Part shown: positions 13,615 to 39,546 of the stretch, piece by piece
How positions within the stretch are numbered: position 1 is the first letter of the stretch
Layout of the letters: each line of letters starts with the position of its first letter
From: a virus
Virus record (IMG/VR): IMGVR_UViG_3300025009_000239
Coordinates: 1-39,692 of that record
Direction: 5' to 3' (one strand)
Length of the DNA stretch: 39,692 nucleotides
Translations under genes and position numbers: made by a program
The notes under the pieces: model-generated
The model's input: the letters and a program-made list of their open reading frames with translations, nothing else
Told to the model about the DNA's origin: nothing
The model's database searches: none

Positions 13615-14045
13615 GCGCCGCCGAGATGCCTACCGAGATGGAGGCGATTTGCTTCAACTTGCACGACGTGGCGTGTGCCCATTCGGCGGAGATCGCCTCG
13701 CTACCAGCCCAGATCGCGGCTATCTTTGGTTGGACATTCAGCGCAGAGCAGACTGAGGCTGTGCGTCAGTTGGCTTGGCACCTCGGGCACCAGGCCCGGC
13801 TGCTGGAGTTCAGTCTGGAAACTCTCTCGGTGGTCTTGGCTGGGCGGGCCTACGATGACCGAGCGCTGTTCTCAAAGACCACCGCGGTCGTTGATATGTG
13901 CCGCTTTGCCCGCGCGGTTCCCGACGTTGGTCCACCACCGAACCCGAGCACCACGGCGCTGGCCGATGCCGTCGAAGATGCCATTGCTGACATGCAGGGC
14001 GATCTGCGCCTGCGGTTCCCTGGCGAAGAACACCCGGGGAGCTGA
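13611..14045 (+). CDS. Hypothetical early protein
   Basis: A 144-residue protein, helical and mildly acidic, that overlaps the previous gene by 4 nt and ends 4 nt before the transposase ATG. HLGHQARLLEFSLETLSVVLAGRAYDD is the longest ordered-looking part. The N-terminus contains one Cys near residue 15 and another at about 22. I do not recognise a family. The DNA between 13675 and 14045 is also open in the transposase frame, but protein composition favours this reading. Confidence 0.6.
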   Translation: MSAAEMPTEMEAICFNLHDVACAHSAEIASLPAQIAAIFGWTFSAEQTEAVRQLAWHLGHQARLLEFSLETLSVVLAGRAYDDRALFSKTTAVVDMCRFARAVPDVGPPPNPSTTALADAVEDAIADMQGDLRLRFPGEEHPGS

Positions 14046-14049
14046 ACAC

Positions 14050-15864
14050 ATGCCGCCCGCCATGCCCTTTGACCAGCTCCAGGAGCTGGTGGCCTTGCGC
14101 GATGCGCTGCTGGCCGCCCCGCCCAAGGGCGGCGAGCGCACGCGGCTGATCAAGGCCTTTGCACAAGAAAAACACCAGTCCACCAGCACGGTGTACCGCT
14201 GGCTCAAGGACCACGCTGGCTTTGAAACCGGCCGCAAGCGCCGCGCTGACTCGGGCACCTCGCGCCTGCCGGTGCAGTCGCTGGAGTTCATTGCGGGCTC
14301 TATCCAGCAAAGCGTGCGCCGCAACGGCATCAGCACCAAGCCCATTTGTGTGGCCATGAACATTGCGCATCAAAACGGCCTGGTCATCAATGTGTCTGAG
14401 AGCCGCATCGCTTCGCTGCTGCGCTCGAACCGGATGGACGTGAAGACCCAGGCCACGGCGCGCAACCACCAGCGCCTGCGCAGCGAGCACCCGAACCACG
14501 TGCACCAGATCGACCCGTCGCTGTGCCTGGTGTACTACCTGGGCGGGCGCCAGCAGATCATGACCGAGGAGCAGTTCAACAAGAACAAGCCCACCTCGCT
14601 GGAGAAGGTGAAGCTCAAGGTGTGGCGTTACGTGCGCTACGACCACGCCTCGCGAAGCATTGATGCGCGCTACTTCGAGGCCGCCGGTGAAAACCAGCGC
14701 AGCCTGTTTGACTTCCTGCTGTACACCTGGGGCCGATCGCAGCTGCGCCTGAGCTATGGCGTGCCACGCATGTTGCTGTGGGACAAGGGCAGCGAGTTCA
14801 CCAGCCCCGGTGTTCGCCGCTTGCTGGACGCCCTGGGCGTGGCCTATGAAGCGCACGCCACGCACCACGCCTGGGTCAAGGGCGGTGTGGAAAACGCCAA
14901 CTGGATTGTTGAGCGCCACTTCGAGAGCCGCTTGCGCGATGAGCCGGTGGAAACGGTTGAGCAGCTTAACGCCAGCTCAGAGGCCTGGTCACGCGACTTC
15001 AACGCCAACAACATCACCCACGTGGACTCGCGCACCCAGTGCGATGACGGCGTGATGCGGGTGCGTGATGACCTGTGGAACCTGATCGCCCACTACCCCG
15101 GCGCGCTGGTGGAAATGCCAGACCGGGAGACCTGCGCCTACTTCATGCGCGGCAAGGAAGAGACGCGGGTGATCAAGGATTCGCGCATCACCTTCGTGCA
15201 CCCGCAGACGAAGAAGAGCGAGCTGTACGTCTTGGAGCCGTGGGCCGGATCGTTTGTCAACAACCAGAAGGTGGTGGTCAGCCCGCTGCTGCTGGGCGAC
15301 GGCATGGTGCGCGTGACGCTGGAGCACTACGGTAAGGATGCGGAGCATGTGGACGTTGCGCCCCAGCGCGAGTTCGACGCCTTTGGCCGCCCGATGTCGG
15401 CCACGCTGATCGGCACCGAGCGGCGCACAGCGCCCCACAGTGCCGCTCAAGAGGCGGGCAAGCGCATCGCTGCGGCCACCTACGGCCCAGGCACCTCGCT
15501 GGACGAAGCTGAGAAGCTCAAGACCAAGAACGCGCGCCCATTCATGCACATGAACGATGGCAAGGGCGTGGTGGCTCACACGCACCTGGGCAAAGGCGAT
15601 CTGCCTGCCCGCCTGCTGCCCGAGGCGTTGCCGATCAAGACGGCCGAGCTGCTGGCGCTGCGCACGCAGCATGCCGACGCGATGCTGCCGCACTTCAAGG
15701 CCGCCCAGGAGCTTGTCAAGCGGGGTGTGGCCATGTCGCCCGAGCTGGTGGCCACGCTCAAGCACTTGCATCCCGAAGCGGTGCCAGAGAGTGCGCTGGA
15801 TGACCTGGTGGCACGCCTCACGGTGCGCTCCGGCCTGCGCGTTGTTGCCGGTGGTGGCTCATGA
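14050..15864 (+). CDS. DDE transposase, MuA-type
   Basis: A 604-residue transposase that would integrate the phage and replicate it by transposition. An N-terminal helical, DNA-binding part (1-145) includes a helix-turn-helix near STSTVYRWLKDHAGF. The integrase-fold core carries the triad D155 (HQIDPS), D245 (LLWDKGSEF) and E281 (KGGVENANWIVE), the last two separated by 35 residues as in retroviral-type integrases. A beta-barrel and C-terminal region follow, where the ATPase should make contact. Start ATG 14050 has GGGGAG 8-9 nt upstream; the frame is open further back but overlaps two genes. The stop overlaps a possible ATG of the ATPase gene. Confidence 0.92.
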   Translation: MPPAMPFDQLQELVALRDALLAAPPKGGERTRLIKAFAQEKHQSTSTVYRWLKDHAGFETGRKRRADSGTSRLPVQSLEFIAGSIQQSVRRNGISTKPICVAMNIAHQNGLVINVSESRIASLLRSNRMDVKTQATARNHQRLRSEHPNHVHQIDPSLCLVYYLGGRQQIMTEEQFNKNKPTSLEKVKLKVWRYVRYDHASRSIDARYFEAAGENQRSLFDFLLYTWGRSQLRLSYGVPRMLLWDKGSEFTSPGVRRLLDALGVAYEAHATHHAWVKGGVENANWIVERHFESRLRDEPVETVEQLNASSEAWSRDFNANNITHVDSRTQCDDGVMRVRDDLWNLIAHYPGALVEMPDRETCAYFMRGKEETRVIKDSRITFVHPQTKKSELYVLEPWAGSFVNNQKVVVSPLLLGDGMVRVTLEHYGKDAEHVDVAPQREFDAFGRPMSATLIGTERRTAPHSAAQEAGKRIAAATYGPGTSLDEAEKLKTKNARPFMHMNDGKGVVAHTHLGKGDLPARLLPEALPIKTAELLALRTQHADAMLPHFKAAQELVKRGVAMSPELVATLKHLHPEAVPESALDDLVARLTVRSGLRVVAGGGS

Positions 15865-15962
15865 AGGCCGCTCCCAAAGAAGTTGGCCCCGGTGTGCGTC
15901 AACACACCGAGGCCGTTCCCGCCCATCGGGCAAATGCAGAAACCCCTGAACAGGAGGTACCC

Positions 15963-16862
15963 ATGTTATTGCAAAACGCCGCGCTCACCCTTGAAGCGCG
16001 CCAACACTTCGGCTTGCCGCGAAACCCGTTTGTGGACGACGTTCAGTCGTCTGCGGATGTGTATCAGACCCCGAGCGTGCGCTACGTGCGCGCCAGCCTG
16101 CTCGACTGCGCCCAGCACCACGGCTTCATTGCCATCGTGGGTGAGTCGGGTGCTGGCAAGAGCACCCTGGCCGAAGACCTCGAGGAGCGCATCCGAACCG
16201 AAGGGCGCGAGGTGGTGGTGATCCGCCCCTATGTGCTGGCCATGGAAGAAAGCGAAGCCCGCGGAAAGCCGCTCAAGAGCGGGCAGATTGCAGAGGCCGT
16301 GATCCGCACGCTGGACCCGCAGGCCAGCGTGAAGAGCAGCCCGGACGCGCGCTTTGCCCAGGTGCACCAGCTGCTCAAGGCCAGCGCCCGCGCCGGGCGC
16401 CACAACCTGATCTTGATTGAAGAGGCGCACACCATGCCCGCGGCCACGCTCAAGCACCTGAAGCGCTGGCTGGAGATCAAGGACGGTCTGCGCCGCCTGG
16501 TGGGCGTGGCGCTGGTGGGTCAGCCGGAGCTGCGCACGCGGCTGGAGAACGGCGGCGCCGAGCTGCGCGAGGTGGCCCAGCGCTGCGAGCTGGTGGAGTT
16601 GGGGCCGCTGGACGCCGACCTGGAGGGTTACCTGCGCCACAAGTTCGCCCGCTTCGATCTGAAGTTTGAACAGGTGTTTGAGCCCGATGCGGCCGACGCC
16701 ATTCGTGCACGCCTGATCCACCTTCCGCGCGGCGCGCGACCACAAGACGCCCGCAGCATCTGCTACCCGCTTGTGGTCAACAACCTGGTGTGCCGCGCGC
16801 TCAACGCCGCCGCGGCCGTGGGCTACCCGAAGGTGGATGCTCAAGTGATTGCGGGGTGCTGA
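15963..16862 (+). CDS. MuB-like AAA ATPase, transposition target selector
   Basis: A 299-residue ATPase of the TniB/ExeA/MuB kind, which would choose target DNA and activate the transposase. Walker A is GESGAGKST at residues 60-68 and Walker B LILIEEAH at 149-156. Sensor-like GVALVGQPELRTRL follows near 180. The N-terminus (LTLEARQHFGLPRNPF) is typical of the family. ATG 15963 has a near-perfect AGGAGG 5 nt upstream. An in-frame ATG at 15861, overlapping the transposase stop, would add 34 low-complexity residues; both starts could be used, but the inner one is better supported. Confidence 0.88.
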   Translation: MLLQNAALTLEARQHFGLPRNPFVDDVQSSADVYQTPSVRYVRASLLDCAQHHGFIAIVGESGAGKSTLAEDLEERIRTEGREVVVIRPYVLAMEESEARGKPLKSGQIAEAVIRTLDPQASVKSSPDARFAQVHQLLKASARAGRHNLILIEEAHTMPAATLKHLKRWLEIKDGLRRLVGVALVGQPELRTRLENGGAELREVAQRCELVELGPLDADLEGYLRHKFARFDLKFEQVFEPDAADAIRARLIHLPRGARPQDARSICYPLVVNNLVCRALNAAAAVGYPKVDAQVIAGC

Positions 16863-25818: not shown

Positions 25819-26580
25819 ATGGCCGCCATTGAAATCGTCAAGAAGATCTACCGCCCGACCGCCCGCGTGGGCAAGTTCTACGCCGCCGTATACGGCTCCG
25901 AGGCGCTGGTGCCGATCGGCAACGTGCTGGAGGCCAGCACCGAGCAGGCCGAGAGCGTGGAGAAGCAAGACGACATGACGGCGCTGGGCGGTGGCACCCA
26001 TGCCGAGCTGCGCCGCATCACGGGCGTGACGTTCAAGGCCAAGCTGGCCGACCTGAACATCGTGAACCTCTCCCGCGCCATGCGCGCCACGGTGACTCCG
26101 GAAGACGCAGGCACCGTGGTGGACGCGCCGTACACCGCCGCGCTCGGCTCGCTGATCCCGTTGCCGCACTCGGGCGTGTCGGCTCTGGTGGTGAAGGTGG
26201 GCGCCACGGTTGGCGCCGCTGTGGCGGTGGACGCTGGCGGCTACGAGCTGCGCCCGGAGGGCGTCTGGCTCAATGAAGATGCGGCTGGCGTGGTGAACGC
26301 GGACAAGCTGTGGCTGTCGTACAGCTTCGCAGACCAGGTGGTGGTTGAGGCGTTGACCGCGGCCACGCCCGAGCTCTACATCCGCTTTGCCGGCATGAAC
26401 GAGGTGGACTCGGGCAAACCCAGCATCGTGGACATGTGGCGCGTGAGCCAGGGCGTGACCAAGCAGTTGGCGCTGATCCAGAAGGGCTTCACCACCCTGG
26501 ACATCGATGGCGAGGTCTTGATGGACCCGACCAAGGAAGGCGTGGGCATCAGCAAATACATGCGCACCATCGAACGCTGA
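25819..26580 (+). CDS. Major tail tube protein
   Basis: A 253-residue beta-rich protein, the likely main subunit of the tail tube. It lies between the terminator-like gene and the tape measure gene and is followed by a strong transcription terminator, as expected for a highly expressed structural gene. TGVTFKAKLADLNIVNLSRAMRA and ELYIRFAGMNEVDSGKPSIVDMWRVS are the kind of segments seen in siphovirus tube proteins. No sheath gene is present in the window, so the tail is probably non-contractile. Confidence 0.75.
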   Translation: MAAIEIVKKIYRPTARVGKFYAAVYGSEALVPIGNVLEASTEQAESVEKQDDMTALGGGTHAELRRITGVTFKAKLADLNIVNLSRAMRATVTPEDAGTVVDAPYTAALGSLIPLPHSGVSALVVKVGATVGAAVAVDAGGYELRPEGVWLNEDAAGVVNADKLWLSYSFADQVVVEALTAATPELYIRFAGMNEVDSGKPSIVDMWRVSQGVTKQLALIQKGFTTLDIDGEVLMDPTKEGVGISKYMRTIER

Positions 26581-26671: not shown

Positions 26672-29308
26672 ATGGCCACAGAAAACCGCATTGATTTCAA
26701 GGTACGCGTCACAGATGAAGGCCTGGCTCCGCTGGCCGGCAACCTGGACAAGGTGGAGTCGAAGACTGAAGAGCTGGGCAAGAGCGCCACCACGACCGGC
26801 CAGCGTATCGACGGCATGGGCGACGCGGCGAGCACAGCGGGAAAACAGACCGACGATCTGGGCGATCGCGCGGGCAACGCGAGCCGGTTGCTTGGAGACA
26901 TGGCGAAGAACCTGGCGGCAGCGTTCACCTTCCGCGAGATGGTTGCCGCGGCGGCTCAGATGGAACAGATCCAGGCCGGGTTGCAGGCGGTCGCTGGCGA
27001 CTCGACGCTGGCCGGTGAGCAGATGGAGTTCGTGCGCCGCATGGCCACGGCCGCGGGCGTTGATGTCACCGCCGCAGGGCAGGCGTTTCTGGGTCTGGCT
27101 GCGGCCACCAAGGGCACGGCCGTCGAGGGCGAGCCGGCGCGCCAGGTCTTCGAGTCCGTCACACTGGCCATGGCCAAGGCGGGGAAGAGCAGCGCCGAGA
27201 CACAAAACGCGTTGCTGGCGCTCTCGCAGATCGCGAGCAAGGGAACGGTGAGCATGGAGGAGCTGCGTGGGCAGCTCGGCGAGGCCTTGCCGGGTGCGCT
27301 GCAGGCGGCTTCGAGCGGGCTGGGAATTACGACTCAGGATTTGATCAAGCTGGTGGAGAACGGGCAGCTTGCGGCTGAAGACCTGTTCCCAGCCCTGGCC
27401 AAAGGTCTGGACGAGCTGTATGGCGGTGCACCAGCTGCGCAGACCTTGAGCCAGGAGATCACCAACATCAAGAACGCTTTCGTCGAGATGTCGGCCAACC
27501 TGGGTGAATCGGGTGGGCTGGACGCGCTGAAAGTGGGCGCCGAGCTGGCTCAGATGTCGATCACCCTGCTGGGCGATACGTTGATCCAGACCGGGCAGTA
27601 CATCGGCACGCTGGCGGGCGCGGTGGCCACGCTGGACTTCTCTGGCCTGTCTGAGTCGTTCGCCCAGATCGAGAAGGACAGCCGGGACCGTCTGCTCAAG
27701 GCGGCCGAGCACAACGACACGTTGCGCGCCGCCCTGGTGTTGAGTTCCGATGCGGCCATTCAGGCCGCGCTGGCTGCGCGAGAACAGGGCAAGGCAGCGG
27801 CCGATGCCGGTGGCCAGAATGCCGCGGCAGCGCCTGGCGTGGCTGCGTTGGGTGTGGCCTACGCCAAGGTACGCGAAGAAATCCAGACGCACATAACCCT
27901 GGCCGAGAAGGAGATCGAAGCCGTCAAGGCCCGCGGGCAGGCCGCTATCGCCCAGGCGGCTGGTCTGGGCGACGAGGAGGCCAAGCGCAAGGCGATCGCT
28001 GTGGCTGCCGCGCAGGAAGCCGCAGCGATGGAGACGCTGGCCAGCATCAAGCGCACCGAGCTGGAGGTGCTCCAGGCTGAGCTGGGGGCGCGCCAGGCGC
28101 TGCTGGGTCAGTCGGGGCAAGACAGCGAGCAGCGCAAGAAGGAAGTGGCCGAGCTGGAAAAGCTGATCGCGCAAAAGCAGATCGACGTGGACAAGACTAC
28201 GGCGCAGGCGTCAGCGTCCAGGGAGAAGGCCAGGGCCAACTCCGAAGAGGTGCAAGCCGCGCAGGCCGCCATCTCGGCAGCACAAGCCCTTTCTGTGGCG
28301 CGCAGCGCAGACGCCAAGGTGGCATTGAGCGGTCTGCAGACCCAGAAAGAGCTGGCGCGCCAGGCCGAGGAGATGGCGCGCCTGATGGGCGATGAGGTGG
28401 GGGTCCGCCAGGCGCGCATCCAGCAGATCGAGATCGAGATCCAGATCGTGAAGGCCCGGGCCAACGTGGCCAAGGTGGAGGCGGAGGGAAGCATCGCCGT
28501 GGCGCAGGCGAAGATGGCGGAACTCAAGGCAAGCGGGCAGCTCACTCCGCTGAAGGAGGCTGAGATCAACGCCGCCATCAAACTGGCCCAGGCAAAGATC
28601 GCCGAGGCCAACGCGAACGGGAAAAGCACTGAGATCCTGGAGAAGCATCTGGAGGCGATGCGAAACGGTGTCGATCTGACGAACGCCGGAGCCGATGCGG
28701 CCAACAGGATGGCCGGCGCGCAGGGCAACATGGCCGGCGCCATCGACCAGGCCACGTCGGCCATGCAGCGGCAAAACGCCGAGCGTGAGGCGGCCATTTC
28801 CGCGCAGGAAAAGGAGCTTGAGCTCAAGCAAAGGGAGATCGACCTGGAGAACAAGCGCCGTGGGGTGGACCGAGAAGGGTTCTCAACGGACAAATCAGGC
28901 AACCGCCTGGCCATGGGCGGCGATCTGACCACGCTGACGGGCATCAAGAACTTCTTGCAGCAGGCCGGCCTGGATGAAGATCAAGCCAAGAGCCTGGCGC
29001 GCGAGTTTGCTGACAGCAAAGGCGATATCCCGTACTTCAGCAACCCGGGGCAGCTCAAGTACGGCGGGCAGGGCAGCACCATGAGCCAGGCGCTGCTGAA
29101 AGCGGCTGAGCGCACCACGTTCGGCGTGGGCAACGGTGGCGCGGCTGCGCTGGGCGGCAAGGGTACCGAGTCCATCTCCACGCCAGGACGCCCCGTCAAC
29201 ATGACAGTGAACGTTGACGGCAAGCGTCACAAGGCGAACATGAACAGCCAGCGCGATGCTGAATCCATGGTGCGAGCGCTGGAAGACACGGCGAAACGCT
29301 CCCGCTGA
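26672..29308 (+). CDS. Tape measure protein
   Basis: An 878-residue protein that sets tail length. The tape-measure domain lies at about 90-250: MEQIQAGLQAVAGDSTLAGEQMEFVRRMATAAGVDVTAAGQAFLGLAAATKGTAVEG, then GTVSMEELRGQLGEALPGALQAA. Hydrophobic segments near 295-325 are followed by a very long helical, Ala/Gln/Glu-rich part (400-780) that must be coiled coil. At about 1.5 Å per residue the length suggests a tail of around 130 nm. No chaperone gene lies between the tube and this gene. There is no good ribosome site before ATG 26672. Confidence 0.9.
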   Translation: MATENRIDFKVRVTDEGLAPLAGNLDKVESKTEELGKSATTTGQRIDGMGDAASTAGKQTDDLGDRAGNASRLLGDMAKNLAAAFTFREMVAAAAQMEQIQAGLQAVAGDSTLAGEQMEFVRRMATAAGVDVTAAGQAFLGLAAATKGTAVEGEPARQVFESVTLAMAKAGKSSAETQNALLALSQIASKGTVSMEELRGQLGEALPGALQAASSGLGITTQDLIKLVENGQLAAEDLFPALAKGLDELYGGAPAAQTLSQEITNIKNAFVEMSANLGESGGLDALKVGAELAQMSITLLGDTLIQTGQYIGTLAGAVATLDFSGLSESFAQIEKDSRDRLLKAAEHNDTLRAALVLSSDAAIQAALAAREQGKAAADAGGQNAAAAPGVAALGVAYAKVREEIQTHITLAEKEIEAVKARGQAAIAQAAGLGDEEAKRKAIAVAAAQEAAAMETLASIKRTELEVLQAELGARQALLGQSGQDSEQRKKEVAELEKLIAQKQIDVDKTTAQASASREKARANSEEVQAAQAAISAAQALSVARSADAKVALSGLQTQKELARQAEEMARLMGDEVGVRQARIQQIEIEIQIVKARANVAKVEAEGSIAVAQAKMAELKASGQLTPLKEAEINAAIKLAQAKIAEANANGKSTEILEKHLEAMRNGVDLTNAGADAANRMAGAQGNMAGAIDQATSAMQRQNAEREAAISAQEKELELKQREIDLENKRRGVDREGFSTDKSGNRLAMGGDLTTLTGIKNFLQQAGLDEDQAKSLAREFADSKGDIPYFSNPGQLKYGGQGSTMSQALLKAAERTTFGVGNGGAAALGGKGTESISTPGRPVNMTVNVDGKRHKANMNSQRDAESMVRALEDTAKRSR

Positions 29309-29794: not shown

Positions 29795-30292
29795 ATGACC
29801 GATCCATCTGTTCAACCTGTGGCGGCGTTGTCCGCCTTTGCCCGCGCTCGCGCTGCGCTGACCACGGCGCGCGATGGTGTCACCACCTGGTGGGCCGAAG
29901 CCAACCGCAAGTGGCCTGTGGCGTGGATCGTGTGCGTGGCCGTGCTGCTGATCGGCACCGTGCTGCTCGCCACCTGCAGCGACTCGCCTGGCCTGGAACA
30001 AAAGCCGATCGCCGAGCAGCCTGTCGCGGAGCAGATCAACCCGCTCTCACCGCTGATCGCCCGCATCGACACCCTGGATGACCAGGTCGCCGAGTTGCAA
30101 TACCAGGTGGCCAAGCTGCAAGAGCCGCAATCAACGGCCGCACCACTGTCTGGCGCGCGCCGCGCGTCCGGGGCCAACCAGAACCGCCTACCCAGCCAGG
30201 CACAAGAGAGCAAGCGCTGGGGCACCACCGACCTTGATCGCGAGATCGAGGCCTTCACCCGTTCCCTCAATCAGCCGGAGCAAGCCAAATGA
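29795..30292 (+). CDS. Membrane-anchored coiled-coil protein
   Basis: A 165-residue protein with about 40 cytoplasmic residues, one membrane segment at 42-60 (VAWIVCVAVLLIGTVLLAT) and then a region with a coiled coil (IARIDTLDDQVAELQYQVAKLQE, about 88-110). The tail is Gln/Ser/Arg-rich. A membrane protein of this kind is unexpected inside a tail operon. The next gene overlaps it by 4 nt and encodes a lipoprotein, so the two may act as a pair across the periplasm. Confidence 0.65.
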   Translation: MTDPSVQPVAALSAFARARAALTTARDGVTTWWAEANRKWPVAWIVCVAVLLIGTVLLATCSDSPGLEQKPIAEQPVAEQINPLSPLIARIDTLDDQVAELQYQVAKLQEPQSTAAPLSGARRASGANQNRLPSQAQESKRWGTTDLDREIEAFTRSLNQPEQAK

Positions 30293-30924
30293 AACGCACC
30301 CTCTTGAAACTGTCGCTCCTCGCCCTGTCGGCCTTTGCGCTGGCCGCCTGCGAAACCAACCCGAGCAAGCCGGAACCCGTGGCCGCGAAGCCCGTCCCCG
30401 TGGCGCCTGCGCCCACCAAGACTTTGGTGGAGATGCAGTACGAGCTGGACAAAGCCGCCATGGAGCTGGAGACCACGAAGACCATGGCGCTGATCAAGTT
30501 CGCCGACCAGTCGGGCAGCGACTACGCCAAGGGCCTTGTATCCGGGATCATCAACGGAGGCGGCAGCGGCGCCCAGGCGCCCACAGCAGCTGCGCGCCCA
30601 TCGTTCGTCCAGGTGGCCCAGCAACAGCAGCAGCACGCCGCCGAAGTTGATCTGCGCCGCGACGAGCTGGCCGAGCGCAACAGCTGGTTTAACAAGGGCC
30701 TGCAGGTGACCGACCGGGTGCTGGGCTTCAAGATGTTCGGCAAGAACCTGGACCAAGAGCGCTACCGCATCGACCAGTCCAACAGCCAGCAACGCTTCCT
30801 GTTCGGCACGCTGCGCGGCACCCAGCAAGACGCATATGGCTTCTCGGGCACGGTGCTGGAACACGGTCCGTATGTGCTGCCAGCCGGCGCCACGCCAGCC
30901 GCGACCACGCCCGCTGTGGAGTAA
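30289..30924 (+). CDS. Lipoprotein in the tail operon
   Basis: A 211-residue protein with a clear lipoprotein signal: MKRTLLKLSLLALSAFALAAC, lipobox LAAC, acylated Cys at 21. The residue after it is Glu, so transport to the outer membrane is likely. A Pro/Ala/Lys linker follows, then helices (LVEMQYELDKAAMELETTKTMALIKFA) and a Gln-rich part. It overlaps the membrane-protein gene before it. Possible roles are superinfection exclusion by blocking incoming phages, or a lysis or virion-release function. None is proven. Confidence 0.7.
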   Translation: MKRTLLKLSLLALSAFALAACETNPSKPEPVAAKPVPVAPAPTKTLVEMQYELDKAAMELETTKTMALIKFADQSGSDYAKGLVSGIINGGGSGAQAPTAAARPSFVQVAQQQQQHAAEVDLRRDELAERNSWFNKGLQVTDRVLGFKMFGKNLDQERYRIDQSNSQQRFLFGTLRGTQQDAYGFSGTVLEHGPYVLPAGATPAATTPAVE

Positions 30925-31026: not shown

Positions 31027-32946
31027 ATGCCCCTGCTCAACGGTGACATTCGATTCGCCCGATCGGCCGTGATGGCCGACACGGAGAACGGTGGCGGGCC
31101 GCCGACCAATCAGCTCATCCCGGACGGTGCGTCCAACCCGATGTTCCCGGACCTCTCCGAGGACGCGTGGACAGGTGGGCTGGTCGAGGTGCGCCAAGTG
31201 CATGCTGTGCTGCGCAACACGGACACCGCGCCCTTGCTGGGCGCGAACATCATCGTGGCCCAACCGCCGGATGATCCCAATGTGTCGATCACCATGATCA
31301 AGTCGCCGGGCACGTTCGCGCGCAGGGCCGACTTGGTCAAGATCATTGAGGCCTCCTCGACGCCTGGCAGTGAGTTCAACGGCTTCTTGCTGGGCAACCT
31401 GGTGGTCGGGCACCGTGGTCTAAAAATCGGGCAGCGGCCCGGCCAGACAACGCCCTCCGTCAACACCGGCCTCGTGCTGGTGCTGGACGAAGGCCTGGTC
31501 ACCGAGCAGGTGCAGTACGTGCGCATCCGCCGCGTGACGGTGGCAACGGAGTACTTCACGGTAGAGGTCGGGGGCCAGTTCGTGGACATGCCGATCCAGG
31601 TGGCCGACTGCGAGCTGTATTCCGAGATCCAGTACGACTTTCCCGGCAGCGAGGCCAACCGCTTCTACGCGCGCCAAGCCGGCAAGACCTTGACCCGCCG
31701 CGTCAACGTGACGGATGCAGGCACTTTCTACAGCGCGTCGCGCTTGACCGAGGCCTGTGTCCCAACAGACCTGGATATCAAGATCGCCAGCGTGTACACG
31801 CAGATCGTGCCCAACACGCGCACCGAAACGCCGCTGCTCAACCAGTTCCCCGGCGGCACGCGCCTGGTGGACTTGGTGGACAGCATGGGCACGCTGCAGG
31901 TGTCGGCCGCAATGCACACCGGGCGCCAGCTCATCACGGAAGCCAACCAAGGCTACGCGCAGACGTTCAAGATGGTGCCGCCGCCAGCGCCCAACAGCGT
32001 GGCCATGAGCTACATGGCCCTGGCCCAGTGGCAGACCATCATCGACGATGGCGAGGGCAACATGGGCGACGGCCCTGGCGGCGGCACGGTGCTGTACCCG
32101 ACCGGCGACGCCTCGGTGACCACCGATTCGCTGTCCGACTACAACACGTTCCAGATCTGGACCTGGGCCGACACCTCGCCGTACATCAACCAGGTGGAGG
32201 CCGGGCCGGTGGTGATCACGACGCGCCCGCCCGAGTTCGCGCTCGACATCACGCCTGGCTCGGTGGTCGATGGGTCCACGATCGCGTGGGAATCTGGCGG
32301 CGTCGCCAAGCTCGCCACGGCAAACGCTGCTGGCGTTCTCAGCGGAGACGCCAGTGGGCTCATGGTCAGCGCGCTGGGCAAGGCGTACATCCGCCCGGCC
32401 GCGATGCCGGACGCCGGCACCAACTTCGTCATCACGCACGCCAGCAAGCCCACCGTGACGCAGTCGTTCACCGGTGTGGGCGTGGACAGTGGTGGATACG
32501 CCGCGCTGGCGCTGGACGATGAGCCGCTGCCTGGCTCGGTGTCGGTGCGCTGGATCACCGCGCGCAATGTGAGCAAGACCAGCGGCGCGGACCTCTCGGG
32601 CACCTCGTCCACCCAAAGCTCCTCGGTCGTTGGATCGGCCGGCTGGTCGCACACCGGTGGCGGGATCGCTGGTGGCGCGCGGGCCACAAGCCGCACGTCG
32701 ATCAACAACACCCAGTACGCGCAGACCACCGAAAGCTCCAGCACCAGCCGCCTGGTCGTGGCGCACTCCATCACCGACGACGGCGCCGGTGGCTTCGGAG
32801 ACCCCTTGCTCGGCTCCGTCAACTACGCCGGACAGGCCGTCAACCTGCGCATGGTGAGCCAGGGCGCGAGCGTCACGAGCTACCGGCAAGACCACGAAAA
32901 CGCTGCCAGCTTCGCCGCCAGCAGCCCCAGCGTATCAATGGGATAA
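31027..32946 (+). CDS. Large tail-tip protein
   Basis: A 639-residue protein beginning MPLLNGDIRFARSAVM. This opening, and the following LIPDGASNPMFPDLSEDAWTGG and VEVRQVHAVLRNTDTAPLLGANIIVAQPPDDPNVSI, recur in tail genes of proteobacterial transposable and related siphophages as far as I know. The body is beta-rich and the C-terminal 130 residues are Ser/Thr/Gly-rich (SGTSSTQSSSVVGSAGWSHTGGG), which suits an extended, exposed part. It probably belongs to the tail tip or baseplate. I cannot give a specific function. Confidence 0.7.
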   Translation: MPLLNGDIRFARSAVMADTENGGGPPTNQLIPDGASNPMFPDLSEDAWTGGLVEVRQVHAVLRNTDTAPLLGANIIVAQPPDDPNVSITMIKSPGTFARRADLVKIIEASSTPGSEFNGFLLGNLVVGHRGLKIGQRPGQTTPSVNTGLVLVLDEGLVTEQVQYVRIRRVTVATEYFTVEVGGQFVDMPIQVADCELYSEIQYDFPGSEANRFYARQAGKTLTRRVNVTDAGTFYSASRLTEACVPTDLDIKIASVYTQIVPNTRTETPLLNQFPGGTRLVDLVDSMGTLQVSAAMHTGRQLITEANQGYAQTFKMVPPPAPNSVAMSYMALAQWQTIIDDGEGNMGDGPGGGTVLYPTGDASVTTDSLSDYNTFQIWTWADTSPYINQVEAGPVVITTRPPEFALDITPGSVVDGSTIAWESGGVAKLATANAAGVLSGDASGLMVSALGKAYIRPAAMPDAGTNFVITHASKPTVTQSFTGVGVDSGGYAALALDDEPLPGSVSVRWITARNVSKTSGADLSGTSSTQSSSVVGSAGWSHTGGGIAGGARATSRTSINNTQYAQTTESSSTSRLVVAHSITDDGAGGFGDPLLGSVNYAGQAVNLRMVSQGASVTSYRQDHENAASFAASSPSVSMG

Positions 32947-32949
32947 GAC

Positions 32950-34584
32950 ATGGCTACCAGTTCCAACAAAGGCGGCACCTACGGCAGCACGGCGATCAGC
33001 GAAGAAGTGCTGGCCGGCTCCACCGTCACGGTCGAATACGTGCCCGTGGGCGCTGCCAGCTCGCCGCTTTCCGAGTCGCGCCCGGCCCAGTCCGTGGCCA
33101 TCTCGCTCACACCCAACGGGCATTTGCCCGCCGTGCCCGGCAGCGTGGTGTTTGCGTGGATGGGCCACGACTATTCCGACAACGGGCAGGGCCTGATTTT
33201 TCGGGACGCGACGGGCAGCGACCCGGGCATCCAGTCCGGCACCATGGACTACGCCACCGTCACCGCACTGCTTGACGACTGGGCCGTGGGCGCGAACCCG
33301 GGCACGATCACGCTCAAGCGTTTGTGGGTGCGCCGCCAGAGATGGACCACCGGCATGATCTTCGGCCGCACGTCCAGCGCCCCGATCCGCCCGGGCGGCA
33401 TGACGCTCACCGCAACCGCCATGGACGGCGGCGCGGTCACGGCCACGGTGGACAACACCGGGCTGATCGGCGGAGACGAAGCCTGGGGCGCACTGGACTT
33501 CGCCTCGGGCGCGTATCAGATCCTGTTCGGCTCTCTGGTCACCGATGCATCGCTCACCGCCGCCGAAAAAGCGGAATGGTGGTACGACGCCGGTGAAGTG
33601 GGCGAGATCGAGGCCGGCAAGATCTGGCGCCCGATCGCGGTGGACCCCACCTCACTGCGCTACAACGCCGTGACCTACGTGTACCTGCCCATCGACGCGG
33701 AGTTGATGGGCATCACGCCCGAGCGCCTGCCACCCGACGGCCGCATGCCCTTCGTTCGGCCCGGCATGTACTGCGTGATCGGGCTCACAGTCACCGGCAG
33801 CGCGTTCGCGCCCATGGTCGGGCAGACCTACGACGTGGGCCATACGTTGCTCTCCAGCATCGACATCCTGGACGCGGATGGCGGCACCGGCCAGGTGCCC
33901 GGCGGCTACACGCAGGATCTTGACGCCGGCACCTTGGTGATCAATGACATCACCGGCTGGCCGGCGATGGTGATCGTGCGCGGCCGGGCCGAGGTGTACC
34001 GCCGCGTTGCCAATGCCCGCATTGACGGCACCGTCACGCTCACGATGCCAGTTGGCCGGGCGTTCCCGGTCGGATCGGTGTTCTCGACGGCCTTGCGTTT
34101 TGGCAACAAGCAGGCCTACGTTGAGCGGCTGTTCGATCAGTACACCTGGAACAAGACCACCTGGTCGAACACGTTGTCTGGAGACGCTGCACCGGGCAGC
34201 TACGACGACACGGGCCACCCGATCGAGTTGAACAACCTGGGCTCGATCACGCAGCGCCTGGCCTTCCAGTTCCGAACCGACGGCATCACGTTCGACTGCT
34301 ACAGCGAACACCTGGGTCTGCTGGGCTCGGGAAGCGTGAACGAAGACTTCATCTTGCCGAACCCGAATGCGGGCGGCGCGCCGTACATCATCGTGCGAGC
34401 ACTCGGCTGGAGCGGTGGCTGGCTCCCGGGCAACGCGCTGTTTGTGCACATCGTGGGCGCCGAGATGACGCACGGCGTGATCCGCAGCACCAACCCAGGG
34501 TCGCCGATCGGCATCGAATACGAGGCGCTTTTTGAGATCAGGGGCGGCACCGACCGCCCGCCCTCCAACCCCTTTCCGAACTGA
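32950..34584 (+). CDS. Tail-tip protein
   Basis: A 544-residue beta-rich protein directly after the 639-residue tail gene (3 nt apart). It has repeated short beta segments (VFAWMGHDYSDNGQGLIFRD; GTVTLTMPVGRAFPVGSVFSTALRFGNKQ). No enzyme motif, signal or membrane segment is visible. It is part of the continuous tail module and probably forms the tip or receptor-contact structure together with its neighbours. No family was recognised. Confidence 0.65.
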   Translation: MATSSNKGGTYGSTAISEEVLAGSTVTVEYVPVGAASSPLSESRPAQSVAISLTPNGHLPAVPGSVVFAWMGHDYSDNGQGLIFRDATGSDPGIQSGTMDYATVTALLDDWAVGANPGTITLKRLWVRRQRWTTGMIFGRTSSAPIRPGGMTLTATAMDGGAVTATVDNTGLIGGDEAWGALDFASGAYQILFGSLVTDASLTAAEKAEWWYDAGEVGEIEAGKIWRPIAVDPTSLRYNAVTYVYLPIDAELMGITPERLPPDGRMPFVRPGMYCVIGLTVTGSAFAPMVGQTYDVGHTLLSSIDILDADGGTGQVPGGYTQDLDAGTLVINDITGWPAMVIVRGRAEVYRRVANARIDGTVTLTMPVGRAFPVGSVFSTALRFGNKQAYVERLFDQYTWNKTTWSNTLSGDAAPGSYDDTGHPIELNNLGSITQRLAFQFRTDGITFDCYSEHLGLLGSGSVNEDFILPNPNAGGAPYIIVRALGWSGGWLPGNALFVHIVGAEMTHGVIRSTNPGSPIGIEYEALFEIRGGTDRPPSNPFPN

Positions 34585-34592
34585 GCTGAACC

Positions 34593-35765
34593 ATGAGCAC
34601 ATCCGTCAAATTCATCACCAGCGCACAGCGCGGTGCGCCCGTGGTCAACGGCGTGGCCGGCACTCAGATCAGCGCGATCGACGCATTCATCAACGGCTGG
34701 GGCGTGACAACCGCTCTGTCGGTCACCGTGGCCGATGGCATCGCCACTGCATCGTTGACCCCGGGAGAAACCTTCGACCGCACCGCGGTGATCCTAGTGG
34801 CTGGCGCCACGCCGGGCGAGATCAACGGCGAGTCGCGCGTGCTCACATCGAGCAACACCAGCATCACCTGGCCGACCACTGCCGCTGACGGCGTGGCCAC
34901 CGGCACGATCACCATCAAATACGCACCGCAGTCCAGCTGGGTCAAGGCCTTCGGTGCCACCAACAAAGCCGCCTATAAAAGCACTCATGTGCAGGCCAGC
35001 GGGCACCACCTGCGGGTGCTCGACGCCGGAACCACCAGTGCGCGTGTGGTCGGCTACGAGACCATGACCGACGTCGACACCGGCACCGGCCCGTTTCCGA
35101 CCGAGGCGCAGATGGCCGGTGGTGGCTACTGGTTCAAGAGCTCGGTGGCCAGCGCGGCGGCTATAAAGTGGCGCATCTTCGCTGACGAGCGGTTCATGCT
35201 GATCTGCAACGCCAGCGCGAGCAACAGCGGCGCGCTGTACACCGCTGCGCAAGCGCGAGGATTCGGCGACATGATCCCGGTGGCCGCGGGTGGCGACGTG
35301 TGGTCCACCGCGCTGTCTTGCGCTGGTGCGGGTGGGCAGCACCTGGGTTCCTTTGACACGGGGAGTGAGCCCGGCGCGAACAATGGTGGCATCTTCTGCC
35401 CGAGGGCCTTCTCCGCGCTCGGCGGCTCCAAGATGATGGCCATGCGGTCGTTCACCGGCACGGCGGGCGCGCAGTCGGGCTCTGACACGGCGCTTGGCCC
35501 CGCGCCGTCAGAGATTGACGGCTCCATCCGCATGTCGCCCGTGTTCCTGACCGAGGGTGCGGCCACGAAGCCACCGCGGGCGATCGTCCCCGGGATCTAC
35601 TACATCCCCCAGAGCAGCACGACCAGCGTGCTCGCGGACGGCGACATCCTGGAGGGCTCTGGCGCTCTGGCCGGGCGAAAGCTGATGGTGGTGCACACCG
35701 CGACCAACTGGTCAACGCAGGCGTCTGGCGCGTACCTGGTGGACCTCACCGGACCGTGGCGCTGA
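34593..35765 (+). CDS. Tail protein
   Basis: A 390-residue protein starting MSTSVKFITSAQRGAP. The first 110 residues look like an Ig-like or other beta domain (IDAFINGWGVTTALSVTVADGIATASLTPGETFDRTAVILVAGATPGEINGESRV). The later part has long beta stretches with GGYWFKSS and IFADERFMLIC. Genes of this type are found in tail regions of Mu-like and related phages, but their role in the tip is not defined. No catalytic motif is visible. Confidence 0.65.
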   Translation: MSTSVKFITSAQRGAPVVNGVAGTQISAIDAFINGWGVTTALSVTVADGIATASLTPGETFDRTAVILVAGATPGEINGESRVLTSSNTSITWPTTAADGVATGTITIKYAPQSSWVKAFGATNKAAYKSTHVQASGHHLRVLDAGTTSARVVGYETMTDVDTGTGPFPTEAQMAGGGYWFKSSVASAAAIKWRIFADERFMLICNASASNSGALYTAAQARGFGDMIPVAAGGDVWSTALSCAGAGGQHLGSFDTGSEPGANNGGIFCPRAFSALGGSKMMAMRSFTGTAGAQSGSDTALGPAPSEIDGSIRMSPVFLTEGAATKPPRAIVPGIYYIPQSSTTSVLADGDILEGSGALAGRKLMVVHTATNWSTQASGAYLVDLTGPWR

Positions 35766-35766
35766 C

Positions 35767-36147
35767 ATGGCCGATCTGGCTTACCCCACGCTGCTGGTGC
35801 CATCGGCGCCGCCCGTGCTCGGGCGCGGGCGGGCGGTGTTCTCCGGCACGGCCCTTGCGCCGGCCGTGCTCAAGTCGCTCGGCGACCGGCGCATCGCAAA
35901 CCCCACGACCGGCACGATCACCGACCGGGTAGTTGTCAAGAGTGGTGCCGCCGAGGTGCCCTACGTCGACGGCCGTGTGTGGCTGCTGCGCCTGAGTGAT
36001 GGGTTCAAGGCGTGGGAGGGATGGAGCGACGCGGCAGGCTACTACACCGCCACAGGGTTGGAGATCGGCGTTGAGTACGTGATGCTGGCCATTGACCCGA
36101 CCCGGACTCACAAGACCACCGGCGCTGGCCCGGTAATGGCCACATGA
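35767..36147 (+). CDS. Small tail protein
   Basis: A 126-residue protein that starts 1 nt after the previous stop and overlaps the next start by 4 nt. TGTITDRVVVKSGAAEVPYVDGRVWLLRLSDGFKAWEGWSDAAGYYTATGLEIGVEYVMLAIDP reads as a carboxypeptidase-regulatory-like or Ig-like beta domain. Such domains in tail tips often serve weak carbohydrate binding. That use is inference. Confidence 0.6.
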   Translation: MADLAYPTLLVPSAPPVLGRGRAVFSGTALAPAVLKSLGDRRIANPTTGTITDRVVVKSGAAEVPYVDGRVWLLRLSDGFKAWEGWSDAAGYYTATGLEIGVEYVMLAIDPTRTHKTTGAGPVMAT

Positions 36148-36581
36148 GCGGTTTGATCAACACCCAGGCGCACCGCGCGGCTCGCAATGCGGCCAGCATC
36201 GCCCTGGCAGACGCCGGGCCCGGCAACGCCAGCATCAGGGCCTACACGGCCCTGGGCGGCACGCTGCTGGCCGTGCGCAGCCTTGAGCGCCCTTGCGGTA
36301 CCGTGCGCCCCAGCGACGGCCGCATCGTGCTGACGCCGCTGGAGTCAACCGAGGTGGCGTTGGCTACTGGCGCAGCGACCTGGGCCGAGTGGTGCAATGC
36401 ATCGGGTGTAGCGATCAGCGCTGGCCGGGTCACCGATCCAGCTGGCAACGTCACCGACGGCACGGGCGCTGTGGTCGCCGACCCGCTGGGTGTCGGCCCT
36501 TTTGTGCTGGGCGGCGGTGCGGCCGGCACCATGGTGTACGCGGGCGGTCTGGTGCTGCTGTTCGCGGCCCTGATCGGGTGA
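36144..36581 (+). CDS. Small tail protein with C-terminal hydrophobic segment
   Basis: A 145-residue protein. The N-terminal part is helical (LINTQAHRAARNAASIALADAGPGNASIRAY), the middle is a beta stretch (TLLAVRSLERPCGTVRP), and the end is hydrophobic (GTMVYAGGLVLLFAALIG, about 128-145). It overlaps the previous gene by 4 nt and ends 4 nt before the next. No family was recognised. Confidence 0.6.
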   Translation: MSGLINTQAHRAARNAASIALADAGPGNASIRAYTALGGTLLAVRSLERPCGTVRPSDGRIVLTPLESTEVALATGAATWAEWCNASGVAISAGRVTDPAGNVTDGTGAVVADPLGVGPFVLGGGAAGTMVYAGGLVLLFAALIG

Positions 36582-36585
36582 GCAT

Positions 36586-38400
36586 GTGGCCGACGAAGGA
36601 AAACTTGTCTTCCTGCGGCCGCATGACGGCACGGGCCGGCTGGTCTTTGGTGATGAATCCGAGGTCTCGGCCCCAGCGACCGAGATCACCATCGACGCCG
36701 ACTTCGACAACGACATGGCCGCGACCGTGCAGCTGCTCTGGGACGCCAACGTGTCCCGCGAAGAAATGGCCTTCTGCCGGGTGCTCTGGCAGGGGGCGGA
36801 ACCGATGTCATCGCGCACCGCTATGCGCTGGCACGAAGGCATCGCCATCGGGGCGCGCGCCGGTGTGCGCTGGCAGGTGGCTGGGCCGGCATCCTCTCGC
36901 ACGGCCGTGCGCTGGCAATACGGTGAGCGAATCACCGCGCGCACAGGCGCCCGGTGGCAGAACGCCGAGGAGCTGCGCCACTCGGTCAGCGTCGCATGGC
37001 AAGAGGCCAATCGACTGCGCGCCCTTGCAAGCACCCGGTGGCAGAACGCCGAGGAGCTGCGCCACTCAGTCAGCGTCGCGTGGCAGGAGGGGTTCCGTCT
37101 GCGCGCTCTCGCGTCGACCCGGTGGCAAACAGCTGTTGGGGCGTCGTATCGGATTACCCAGCGCAGTGGTGCGGCCCAGCAGGTCCGCCATGTGCTGGCC
37201 ACCCGGTGGCAAGAGGCCCGGCGCCCGCTGGCAGGCCAGAGCACGCTCACGCAGCCCGAGCCGCCGGTGGATGAACCCTGCTACGACCCGGCGACCTTGG
37301 GTCAGCTGGAGTTCTGGCAGCCCTGGGCGAACGATGGCCGGCTGGTGTTTGTTTGCAAAACGGCGCCGCTGCCCCCCGCCGGCATCGTCATCCCCACCCG
37401 GAGCACCTACGTGGTCCAAAACAGCGTAACCCTCTACCGCCTGCCGGCAGGCATCGAGTTCAAAGCGGAAAGCTTCGTCCTGGACATCGACAAAGATTCC
37501 TGGACCTTCGGCTGGTCCGCGTCGCTGCACAGCAGCGCCCGGGCGCACCTGGTGCGTTCGGCGCCCGACGAACGCGTCGAGGTGGAATGTGTCGTCAACG
37601 GCGTGTCCTATCGTCTGGCGATCGACAGCATGGGTCGCGACAGATCGTTTCCTGAGTCGCGCATCGCTGTGCGAGGTCGGGGCCGGGCGGCCGAGCTGGA
37701 CGACGTGGATCTGCCGTTTGGCAGCACGGCGCCGCGCACGGCCCAGCAGCTCATGGCCGACGTGCTCACAGTCAACGGTGTGAGCCTGGGCTGGACGCTC
37801 GACTGGCAGATCGATGACTGGCTGGTGCCGGCCGACACGTTTCTGTTCGGTGGCTCGTACATCGGTGCGCTGCGTTACATCGCCGATGCGGCCAAGGCCT
37901 ACATCCAGCCGCACCCGACCGACAAGGTGCTGCGCGTGCTGCCCCTGTACCGGCATGCGCCATGGGACTGGGCGACCCTGTTGACGCCCGACATCGAGCT
38001 GCCCGCCGCAGTGACCTCGGTGGTGAACATCGAAGAGGTGATGCTGCCTCGCTACAACCAGGTGTTCGTCGGCGGGGTCAACAAGGGCGTCTTTGGCCCG
38101 GTGATCCGGAGCGGGACGGTCGGTGGCCAGGTGGCGCCACAGGTGCTCCACCCGCTGATCACCGCCGCAGCGGCCCACATCCAGTGCGGGCGTGGAGTGC
38201 TGTCTGACACCGGTCTCCAAGAGCACTATTCACTGCAGACGATGGTGCTGCCGGAGACGGGGATCATCTTGCCCGACAAGGCACTGCGCTTCGTCGACGA
38301 AGACGGGCCACACCTGGGCGTCGTGCGCAAGACACGGGTGCACATGGACACCTGGCCCGAGCTGTATCAAACCCTGGGGGTTGAGACCCATGTTGAGTAA
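36586..38400 (+). CDS. Tail hub/baseplate-like protein with 14-residue Trp repeats
   Basis: A 604-residue protein with a GTG start at 36586, 4 nt after the previous stop. Residues 5-22 (KLVFLRPHDGTGRLVFG) and about 240-258 (QLEFWQPWANDGRLVF) share a motif and bracket a tandem repeat of 14 residues, with Trp at 68, 82, 96, 110, 124, 138, 152, 166, 180 and 208. The C-terminal 330 residues are a hub-like domain (LQEHYSLQTMVLPETGIILPDKALRFVDEDG). It is probably part of the tail tip that meets the host. The repeat is partly identical at DNA level, so copy number may change by recombination. Confidence 0.7.
   Translation: MADEGKLVFLRPHDGTGRLVFGDESEVSAPATEITIDADFDNDMAATVQLLWDANVSREEMAFCRVLWQGAEPMSSRTAMRWHEGIAIGARAGVRWQVAGPASSRTAVRWQYGERITARTGARWQNAEELRHSVSVAWQEANRLRALASTRWQNAEELRHSVSVAWQEGFRLRALASTRWQTAVGASYRITQRSGAAQQVRHVLATRWQEARRPLAGQSTLTQPEPPVDEPCYDPATLGQLEFWQPWANDGRLVFVCKTAPLPPAGIVIPTRSTYVVQNSVTLYRLPAGIEFKAESFVLDIDKDSWTFGWSASLHSSARAHLVRSAPDERVEVECVVNGVSYRLAIDSMGRDRSFPESRIAVRGRGRAAELDDVDLPFGSTAPRTAQQLMADVLTVNGVSLGWTLDWQIDDWLVPADTFLFGGSYIGALRYIADAAKAYIQPHPTDKVLRVLPLYRHAPWDWATLLTPDIELPAAVTSVVNIEEVMLPRYNQVFVGGVNKGVFGPVIRSGTVGGQVAPQVLHPLITAAAAHIQCGRGVLSDTGLQEHYSLQTMVLPETGIILPDKALRFVDEDGPHLGVVRKTRVHMDTWPELYQTLGVETHVE
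36784..37215 (+). repeat. 42-bp tandem coding repeats with near-identical 84-bp pair
   Basis: About ten units of 42 bp encode the 14-residue repeat. The best pair spans 36952-37035 and 37036-37119 (84 bp each). Their proteins differ only at two residues (EAN versus EGF), and the first 42 bp of each are almost the same. Confidence 0.85.
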
Positions 38401-38614
38401 CCCGCACGCCCGATTTCTGGCCCTGCTGCCGCCGAAGCCACGGCAGGTGGGCACTGTGATCGCCGTCGACGGCGAGGTGGCCACCGTGGAGCTGCCCGGA
38501 GGCGGCCAGCTGCAGGCACTTGGTGCTGCTGTGGTGAATGACCGAGTTTTCGTCCGCGATGGAGTGATCGAGGGCGAGGCGCCGAACCTGACCTACATCT
38601 CGGCCGAGGTGTAG
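38390..38614 (+). CDS. Small OB-fold-like tail protein
   Basis: A 74-residue protein overlapping the previous stop by 11 nt. RQVGTVIAVDGEVATVELPGGGQLQALGAAVVNDRVFVRDGVIEGEAPNL reads as a five-strand OB barrel like those in phage spike and baseplate hub proteins. It is the last gene of the tail module and could sit at the tip of the hub. The start ATG 38390 is the only good one. Confidence 0.65.
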   Translation: MLSNPHARFLALLPPKPRQVGTVIAVDGEVATVELPGGGQLQALGAAVVNDRVFVRDGVIEGEAPNLTYISAEV

Positions 38615-38772
38615 CGGGGGCGGAAAAAAGACGGGCGACCTGACCCGGTGCGCTAACACCTGGTCAAGCCCCCGAACCTGCAGGATGAGCTGCAAGCCAG
38701 GCGAAGACCCGCCACTCTCGCGAGAGCAGGTCAAGCCTATCAGAGTTTTTCTGACGGAAAAGAAGCTTGCAA
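38615..38772 (+). other. Intergenic region before the methylase
   Basis: No gene is visible. It contains a perfect 12-bp palindrome CTCTCGCGAGAG (38715-38726) and the 12-mer TTTTCTGACGGA (38747-38758), which recurs after the methylase gene. A promoter for the methylase could lie here, but no clear -35/-10 pair stands out. The late element is absent. Confidence 0.4.
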
Positions 38773-39546
38773 ATGGAAAACATCAAAGCGGCACCGCTAG
38801 TGCCATGGATCGGTGGCAAACGGCGCCTGGTCAAACACATCTTGCCGATGTTCCCGGCGCACACCTGCTACGTGGAGCCCTTCTGTGGGGCCGCAGCCTT
38901 GTATTTCGCCAAGACGCCGGCCAAGGCCGAGGTGCTGAACGACATCAACGGCGAGGTGGTCAACCTCTACAGGGTGGTGCGCCACCATGTAGAGGAGTTC
39001 AACAGGCAGTTCAAGTGGGGCCTGACCAGCCGCCAGATCTTCAAGTGGCTGCAGATCACGCCGGCTGAGACGCTGACGGACATTCAGCGAGCGGCGAGGT
39101 TCTTCTACCTTCAAAAGCAGGCGTTCGGGGGCAAGGTGCAGGGTCAGACCTTCGGCACGGCCGCCACCACACCACCGAGGCTGAATCTGCTGCGGCTGGA
39201 GGAAGATCTGTCGGCGGCACACCTACGGCTGGCCAGCACGTACATCGAACACCTGGACTGGTCAACGTGTGTGACCAAGTACGACCGCCCAGGGACGCTG
39301 TTCTACTGCGACCCGCCCTATTGGGGGACCGAGGGATATGGCGTGGGGTTCGGCCTGGAGCAGTACGACCACCTGGCAGCCCTGGCCAGGTCAATCAAGG
39401 GGCGGATGATCATCTCGGTCAACGACATCCCCGAGATGCGCCGGGCATTCAAGGGCCTGACAATGAACCGGGTGGACATCTCGTACTCGGTTGGCAAGGC
39501 TGCAGACCGAAAGAAGACCGGTGAGCTGGTGATCCAGAACTGGTAG
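38773..39546 (+). CDS. DNA adenine methylase, Dam type
   Basis: A 257-residue class D12 (Dam-like) N6-adenine methyltransferase. The S-adenosylmethionine side has VPWIGGKRRLV at 10-20 and EPFCGAAALYF near 35; the catalytic motif is DPPYWG at 180-185. The target sequence cannot be read from the gene. In Mu the right end carries mom, which modifies phage DNA against restriction; a methylase here may do the same job. ATG 38773 is chosen because the TTG 6 nt earlier has no better site. Its position outside the tail module and the flanking 12-bp repeats suggest separate acquisition. Confidence 0.9.
   Translation: MENIKAAPLVPWIGGKRRLVKHILPMFPAHTCYVEPFCGAAALYFAKTPAKAEVLNDINGEVVNLYRVVRHHVEEFNRQFKWGLTSRQIFKWLQITPAETLTDIQRAARFFYLQKQAFGGKVQGQTFGTAATTPPRLNLLRLEEDLSAAHLRLASTYIEHLDWSTCVTKYDRPGTLFYCDPPYWGTEGYGVGFGLEQYDHLAALARSIKGRMIISVNDIPEMRRAFKGLTMNRVDISYSVGKAADRKKTGELVIQNW

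Follow-up and report, generated by a model that had tools for sequence, protein, structure and literature searches.

The closest described relatives of the protein studied here are the baseplate hubs Mu gp44 (gpP) and T4 gp27. The protein has the same predicted fold over residues 268-604 and, as in these systems, its gene lies after that of the tape measure protein. It differs from them in carrying approximately 267 extra N-terminal residues with a 14-residue repeat array. A common core is also shared with the siphophage hub T5 pb3 (7zqp_b), at Z 12.9 over model residues 273-604. Whereas JBD30 gp53 and T5 pb3 have additional domains within and following the core, the present protein is elaborated by an N-terminal repeat arm. 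In the accessible text on phage JBD30, the hub is described as the platform where fibres and receptor-binding proteins attach (PMC11445458). Members of the matching protein family, PHROG 6079, include gp21 of Stenotrophomonas phage S1 and p48 of Shewanella phage MuM16-1, as found by tblastn; the family's entry in the profile library describes neither repeats nor a hub fold. The protein is a known hub type with an added arm, not a new system.

The window, meaning the whole stretch of DNA analyzed, is an entire virus record of 39,692 bases. It encodes a Mu-like transposase and transposition protein (13675-15864 and 15861-16862), in addition to a head maturation protease, a major head protein, a major tail protein (25819-26580), and a tape measure protein (26672-29308). 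The hub gene (36586..38400, plus strand) sits in the tail operon downstream of the tape measure gene. It starts with GTG and encodes a 604-residue tail protein comprising an N-terminal arm and a C-terminal hub. The match to the PHROG 6079 profile, annotated as ‘tail protein’, is strong (E 1.9e-121; residues 9-603 against 8-604 of 605) and takes in the arm as well, such that most of the length is covered. Upstream on the same strand are tail genes encoding proteins of 639, 544, 390, 126, and 145 residues (31027..36581), with matches to PHROG 6128, 9998/9600, and 3758. On the 3′ side is a small plus-strand gene (38396..38614), assigned to PHROG 5076 through residues 69-140 of the open reading frame 38192-38614. 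DNA similarity to relatives runs on through this gene, which forms a conserved block with the hub.

Two further features of this operon were observed. The adjacent genes for the 639- and 544-residue proteins (31027-34584) match the two ends of the 1,200-residue PHROG 6128 (1-284 and 678-1200), and this gene, single elsewhere, appears to be split in the window. Between the tape measure and tail genes, there is a protein with a lipoprotein-like start (30289-30924) and one with a hydrophobic stretch (29795-30292).

The C-terminal 330 or so residues are confidently predicted to form a baseplate hub of the Mu gp44 / T4 gp27 fold (residues 268-604; 37387..38397, plus strand). An AlphaFold model of the monomer, based on 104 sequences, reaches block-mean pLDDT values of 80-98 across residues 271-604. 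This model matches the Mu baseplate hub (9ki1_G; Foldseek E 4.6e-17, VIA-align Z 21.8), T4 gp27 (1k28_D; VIA-align Z 18.1), and VgrG-type hubs, with many known hubs scoring Z 18-23. In the top VIA-align row, that of Milano (8fqc_C1, Z 23.0), residue 1 is paired with model residue 277. As known hubs start around this position, the first 267 or so residues, array included, are best viewed as an N-terminal addition. The first-pass annotation had placed the product in the tail tip, and the predicted fold bears this out. Searches from sequence were less informative: a structure search with a 14-sequence profile returned Mu gp44 at E 0.018 next to an unrelated-looking chain at 0.019, which is weak on its own, and a single-protein sequence search of solved structures gave no match.

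The arm contains a regular repeat array bracketed by conserved motifs, all encoded on the plus strand. Tryptophan is found at residues 68, 82, 96, 110, 124, 138, 152, 166, 180, and 208, with serine at residue 194; the spacing and the typical units that had been reported for the span 36784-37215 (residues 67-210) are therefore confirmed. Ten of the 11 tryptophans in residues 51-225 fall in one register; when 11 tryptophans were placed at random 20,001 times, this level was never reached at periods between 5 and 30. The array comprises eleven 14-residue units (residues 68-221; 36787..37248), which have tryptophan or another aromatic at position 1, Q at position 2, A/G at position 4, R/P at position 6, and L at position 7. 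Serine replaces tryptophan in unit 10 (37165..37206), the unit that also departs most often from an aromatic in relatives, where position 1 is aromatic or His in 0.51 of arms. Preceding the array is a degenerate 16-residue leading unit with W52 (36739..36786), as defined by tryptophan spacing and an alignment of first units; we read it as the probable counterpart of a ‘YDNxxxRP’ stretch in relatives. The bracketing by a repeated LVF motif, also reported earlier, is real and takes the form of an LxF pair on each side. The first pair (residues 7-21; 36604..36648) consists of LVF at 7-9 and at 19-21, and the second, together with a conserved cysteine (residues 241-257; 37306..37356), of LEF at 241-243 and LVF at 253-255. 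Residues L7, F9, L19, F21, L241, F243, L253, F255, and C257 are each conserved in at least 90% of the 104 aligned sequences.

Within the array, units 5-6 and 7-8 form two 28-residue blocks (36955..37122), which are detected by Tandem Repeats Finder as a DNA repeat with 84% matches at period 84. The blocks (36955-37038 and 37039-37122) are identical at 26 of 28 residues. They had been described as almost identical in DNA, which applies to their first halves (40/42) and fails for their second (29/42), where the mismatches are mostly synonymous.

To place the arm in context, relatives were drawn from IMG/VR, GTDB genomes, and named phages. The resulting set contains 140 distinct proteins and 138 arms, of which 96 are non-redundant and at least 150 residues long; the largest list contributed its best 80 of 118 matches. 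Pooled distances between tryptophans in the 96 arms peak at 28, 14, 42, and 56 residues. A 14-position unit profile scored 95 of the 96 above the best shuffled arm. This profile was trained on the very arms in which units were counted, with step penalties in favour of 14, whereas the tryptophan autocorrelation is free of both influences. The one arm below threshold, that of MuM16-1 p48 (L025, score 4.0), nevertheless has tryptophan at residues 76, 89, 103, 117, 131, and 145. Steps between units are 14 residues in 809 cases, 15 in 126, and 16 in 7.

Unit number is nearly fixed in this family: 80 of the 95 non-redundant scorable arms have 11 or 12 units (45 and 35, respectively), one has 13, eight have 9 or 10, and six have 4-8. 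By eye, most of the difference between 11 and 12 comes down to including or omitting the degenerate leading unit. The pattern is conserved across arms, while sequence conservation is slight. Array length is 140-187 residues in the 84 arms for which it was determined, and 82 of these 84 arrays carry positive net charge (mean +10.4). Their composition is basic and low-complexity-like, with approximately 11 W/Y/F per array. None of 94 arrays matched Pfam at E ≤ 0.01, and the open-licence PMC literature, so far as its text was available, yielded no paper describing this array.

Resemblance is greater between units separated by an even number of steps, giving a family-wide super-period of 28 residues: similarity is 0.253 for units two apart, compared with 0.190 for one apart and 0.184 for three apart. 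Likewise, near-identical DNA unit pairs occur in three arms, and in all of them the pair is two units apart. On the basis of these two observations, 28 residues is the step of exchange and probably also the structural step.

The original proposal was that the array is an elongated rod or solenoid, with unequal recombination adjusting its length. The underlying array is real, and the arm is indeed the fast-changing, recombining part of the protein; variable length is what did not hold. In the window, the near-identical 42-nucleotide copies (40/42) that lie two units apart show that copies have been exchanged or duplicated, and the segment before the array ranges from 46 to 422 residues, although these values are upper bounds from first-in-frame start guesses (L130 is probably over-extended). 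However, copy exchange inside the array keeps to a 28-residue register with no accompanying change in count: the three arms with a near-identical unit pair still have 11 or 12 units, the number seen in 80 of 95 arms overall. Among 157 arm pairs of 65-99.5% identity, unit counts are equal in 88, differ by one in 22, and differ by more in 47. We read these 47 as probable artefacts, since all involve either L144, whose arm has a disrupted reading frame, or members of the Pseudomonas-type group, in which the profile reads arrays only partly (2-5 units) and more tryptophans are in register by eye. These Pseudomonas-type sequences are distant relatives with a different order and apparently fewer units, and only distant relatives look rearranged or shorter. 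Given this near-constancy, the data do not support unequal recombination as a way of tuning length, and length variation was rejected as the main explanation; with neither AlphaFold model showing a solenoid, we regard a length-tuned rod as very improbable.

While the number of units is stable, the arm that they form is hypervariable on a conserved hub, as judged from sequence comparison. Between the window protein and L050, the closest relative among the matches listed, identity is 25% for the arm and 86% for the hub; for L051, the corresponding values are 32% and 72%. At the DNA level, blastn similarity of the window starts at a recombination joint (37361..37376, plus strand), at 37361 for L051 and L052 and at 37376 for L001, and continues through the hub. 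A more distant relative, L053, also matches the window upstream of the gene. In total, 19 pairs were discordant (hub at least 80%, arm at most 45% identical), and in 16 of these the hub-spanning DNA match starts between -65 and +5 residues from the hub; the other three start at -216, -108, and +10. The 19 pairs share loci (28 distinct) and hence are not independent. Among control pairs with similar arms (40 sampled from 145), none starts at the joint and 38 extend past the gene start. Many discordant pairs retain separate, weaker upstream matches of 65-73%.

Locus L128 is a clear arm-hub chimera by the same kind of comparison. Up to residue ~291, upstream flank included, its DNA is 84-90% identical to L143/L142; from residue ~279 through the hub and downstream, it is 90% identical to L080. 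The two matches overlap at residues ~279-291, which correspond to the second LxF/Cys stretch. At the protein level, L128 is 96% identical in the arm and 31% in the hub on one side of the comparison, and 96% in the hub and 40% in the arm on the other. In 14 of 8,911 pairs, seven of them involving L128, arm identity exceeds hub identity by more than 8 points. These patterns indicate that arms and hubs have different histories, and that recombination swaps whole arms at the arm-hub joint.

The upstream tail genes (31027..36581) may exchange together with the arm, and their linkage is suggested by patterns of divergence. In 69 discordant pairs, mean identity is 34 upstream, 28 for the arm, 67 for the hub, and 61 downstream. 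Partial rank correlations (1,802 pairs from 72 loci) are 0.52 for hub and downstream, 0.19 for arm and upstream, and 0.08 for arm and hub. The arm seems to travel with the upstream tail genes, though the case is weaker here than for arm exchange; the correlation of 0.19 is weak. In the text available for MuM16-1, p48 was detected in virions by mass spectrometry, and the authors proposed that genes p45-p49 serve host-surface recognition (PMC8541194). A fast-changing, recombining arm fits the host-recognition side of the tail.

The explanation that we favour, and to which we give an even chance, is that the arm is a fixed-size adaptor that travels with the upstream tail genes and fits them to the conserved hub. 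A canonical gp27/gp44-type hub bears an added N-terminal arm, arranged as an LxF pair, a degenerate leading unit plus eleven 14-residue aromatic units, and a second LxF pair. With the degenerate unit counted, this gives twelve units, or six pairs of 28 residues. The basic, aromatic arm would dock exchangeable, upstream-encoded host-recognition proteins on the hub, and recombination at the conserved LxF/Cys joint would let phages trade the recognition cassette. Geometry would fix the length of the arm, while the arm surface would change along with its partners. Sequence or prediction shows arm exchange, the fixed count, and the hub fold; we infer both partner docking and host contact, and arm exchange may help phages to change hosts. 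A more specific version is unlikely in its entirety: that twelve units (six 28-residue pairs) per hub subunit, in constant number, make up a standardized coupling by which interchangeable recognition cassettes of many Burkholderiales phages plug onto one conserved hub, that the LxF/Cys joint is an inbuilt site of recombination, and that near-identical copies spread in 28-residue steps that leave the count unchanged. If the adaptor explanation is correct, it would show where, and in what way, a large group of Mu-like phages and other siphophages exchange host-recognition parts: within a single gene, at the joint between a conserved hub and a fixed-size repeat arm. It would also provide a sequence marker for host-range modules in Burkholderiales prophages, and pose the structural puzzle of a fixed number combined with free sequence.

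Two other roles for the arm were weighed against docking. Hypervariability relative to the conserved hub, the positive charge of nearly all arrays (82/84), and their 11 or so aromatic residues would also be expected if the arm itself contacts the receptor, with its basic aromatic surface binding the cell envelope (e.g. phosphate-rich LPS) and no partner involved. However, near-constant unit number and co-divergence with the upstream genes fit docking as well or better, and we consider direct contact unlikely. For Curvibacter phage PCA1, the accessible text proposes candidate receptors only (PMC9763317). Alternatively, the arm could lie inside the particle or serve in assembly, for instance by packing on the tape measure or tail tube, with its sequence drifting because only the pattern matters. 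The conserved pattern with little sequence conservation, the basic low-complexity-like composition, and the location of hubs at the tube end in the matched known baseplates are all in keeping with this. Drift, however, leaves unexplained the abrupt DNA joints, the L128 chimera, and the occurrence of 96%-identity arms on 31%-identity hubs; an internal role is the more doubtful of the two.

The two AlphaFold runs disagree on the fold of the arm, and the proposed rod or solenoid geometry was obtained in neither. The full-length model has one short strand per unit at pLDDT ~50 (residues 103-108, 116-122, 131-136, 144-150, 159-164, and 173-178), whereas the array-only model is one long helix (residues 107-190; pLDDT 84-91 at 126-175, pTM 0.30). 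Foldseek matched no PDB chain to the array-only model, a poor model that makes this result of little weight. Position 6 is proline in 26% of units, and there are 0.71 prolines per unit, which argues against a continuous helix across the family. Harmonic 4, the heptad test, shows no enrichment in the unit profile, with values as high in 0.27-0.64 of permutations. Strand-type alternation has permutation fractions of 0.004 (Fauchere-Pliska) and 0.047 (Kyte-Doolittle) for the window, and 0.023 and 0.11, respectively, for the pooled profile. When arms are taken singly, harmonic 5 or 4 dominates in most of them, and harmonic 7 in only 18/84 or 5/84. Alternation hence leans to strands for the window and pooled profile, but not for individual arms. 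Triple beta-spiral fibre shafts, such as that of the adenovirus fibre, are built from a 15-residue repeat. The arm may resemble them in its short repeat, Gly/Pro at turn-like positions, and probably trimeric protein. It differs in its 14-residue repeat; this candidate was rejected on the predominance of 14-residue over 15-residue steps (809 against 126, with 7 of 16).

Some minor features surround the array. Two cysteines near the joint, C230 and C257 (37273-37356), form a possible disulphide or metal site; cysteine is present in both matching stretches in 105 of 138 arms. Many relatives (e.g. L084:1772-3904, L076:2036-4192) have a second repeat of ~25 residues before the array, with an LPPLTV-like core and variable number by eye. 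Also by eye, the array looks permuted in the Pseudomonas-type L152, L024, L154, L156, and L163, with an FDF-type stretch inside and more tryptophan units before the hub. Finally, the hub block of the window is followed by a gene for a D12-class adenine methyltransferase (38767-39546; Pfam E 2.7e-25), through which DNA similarity to L051 extends.
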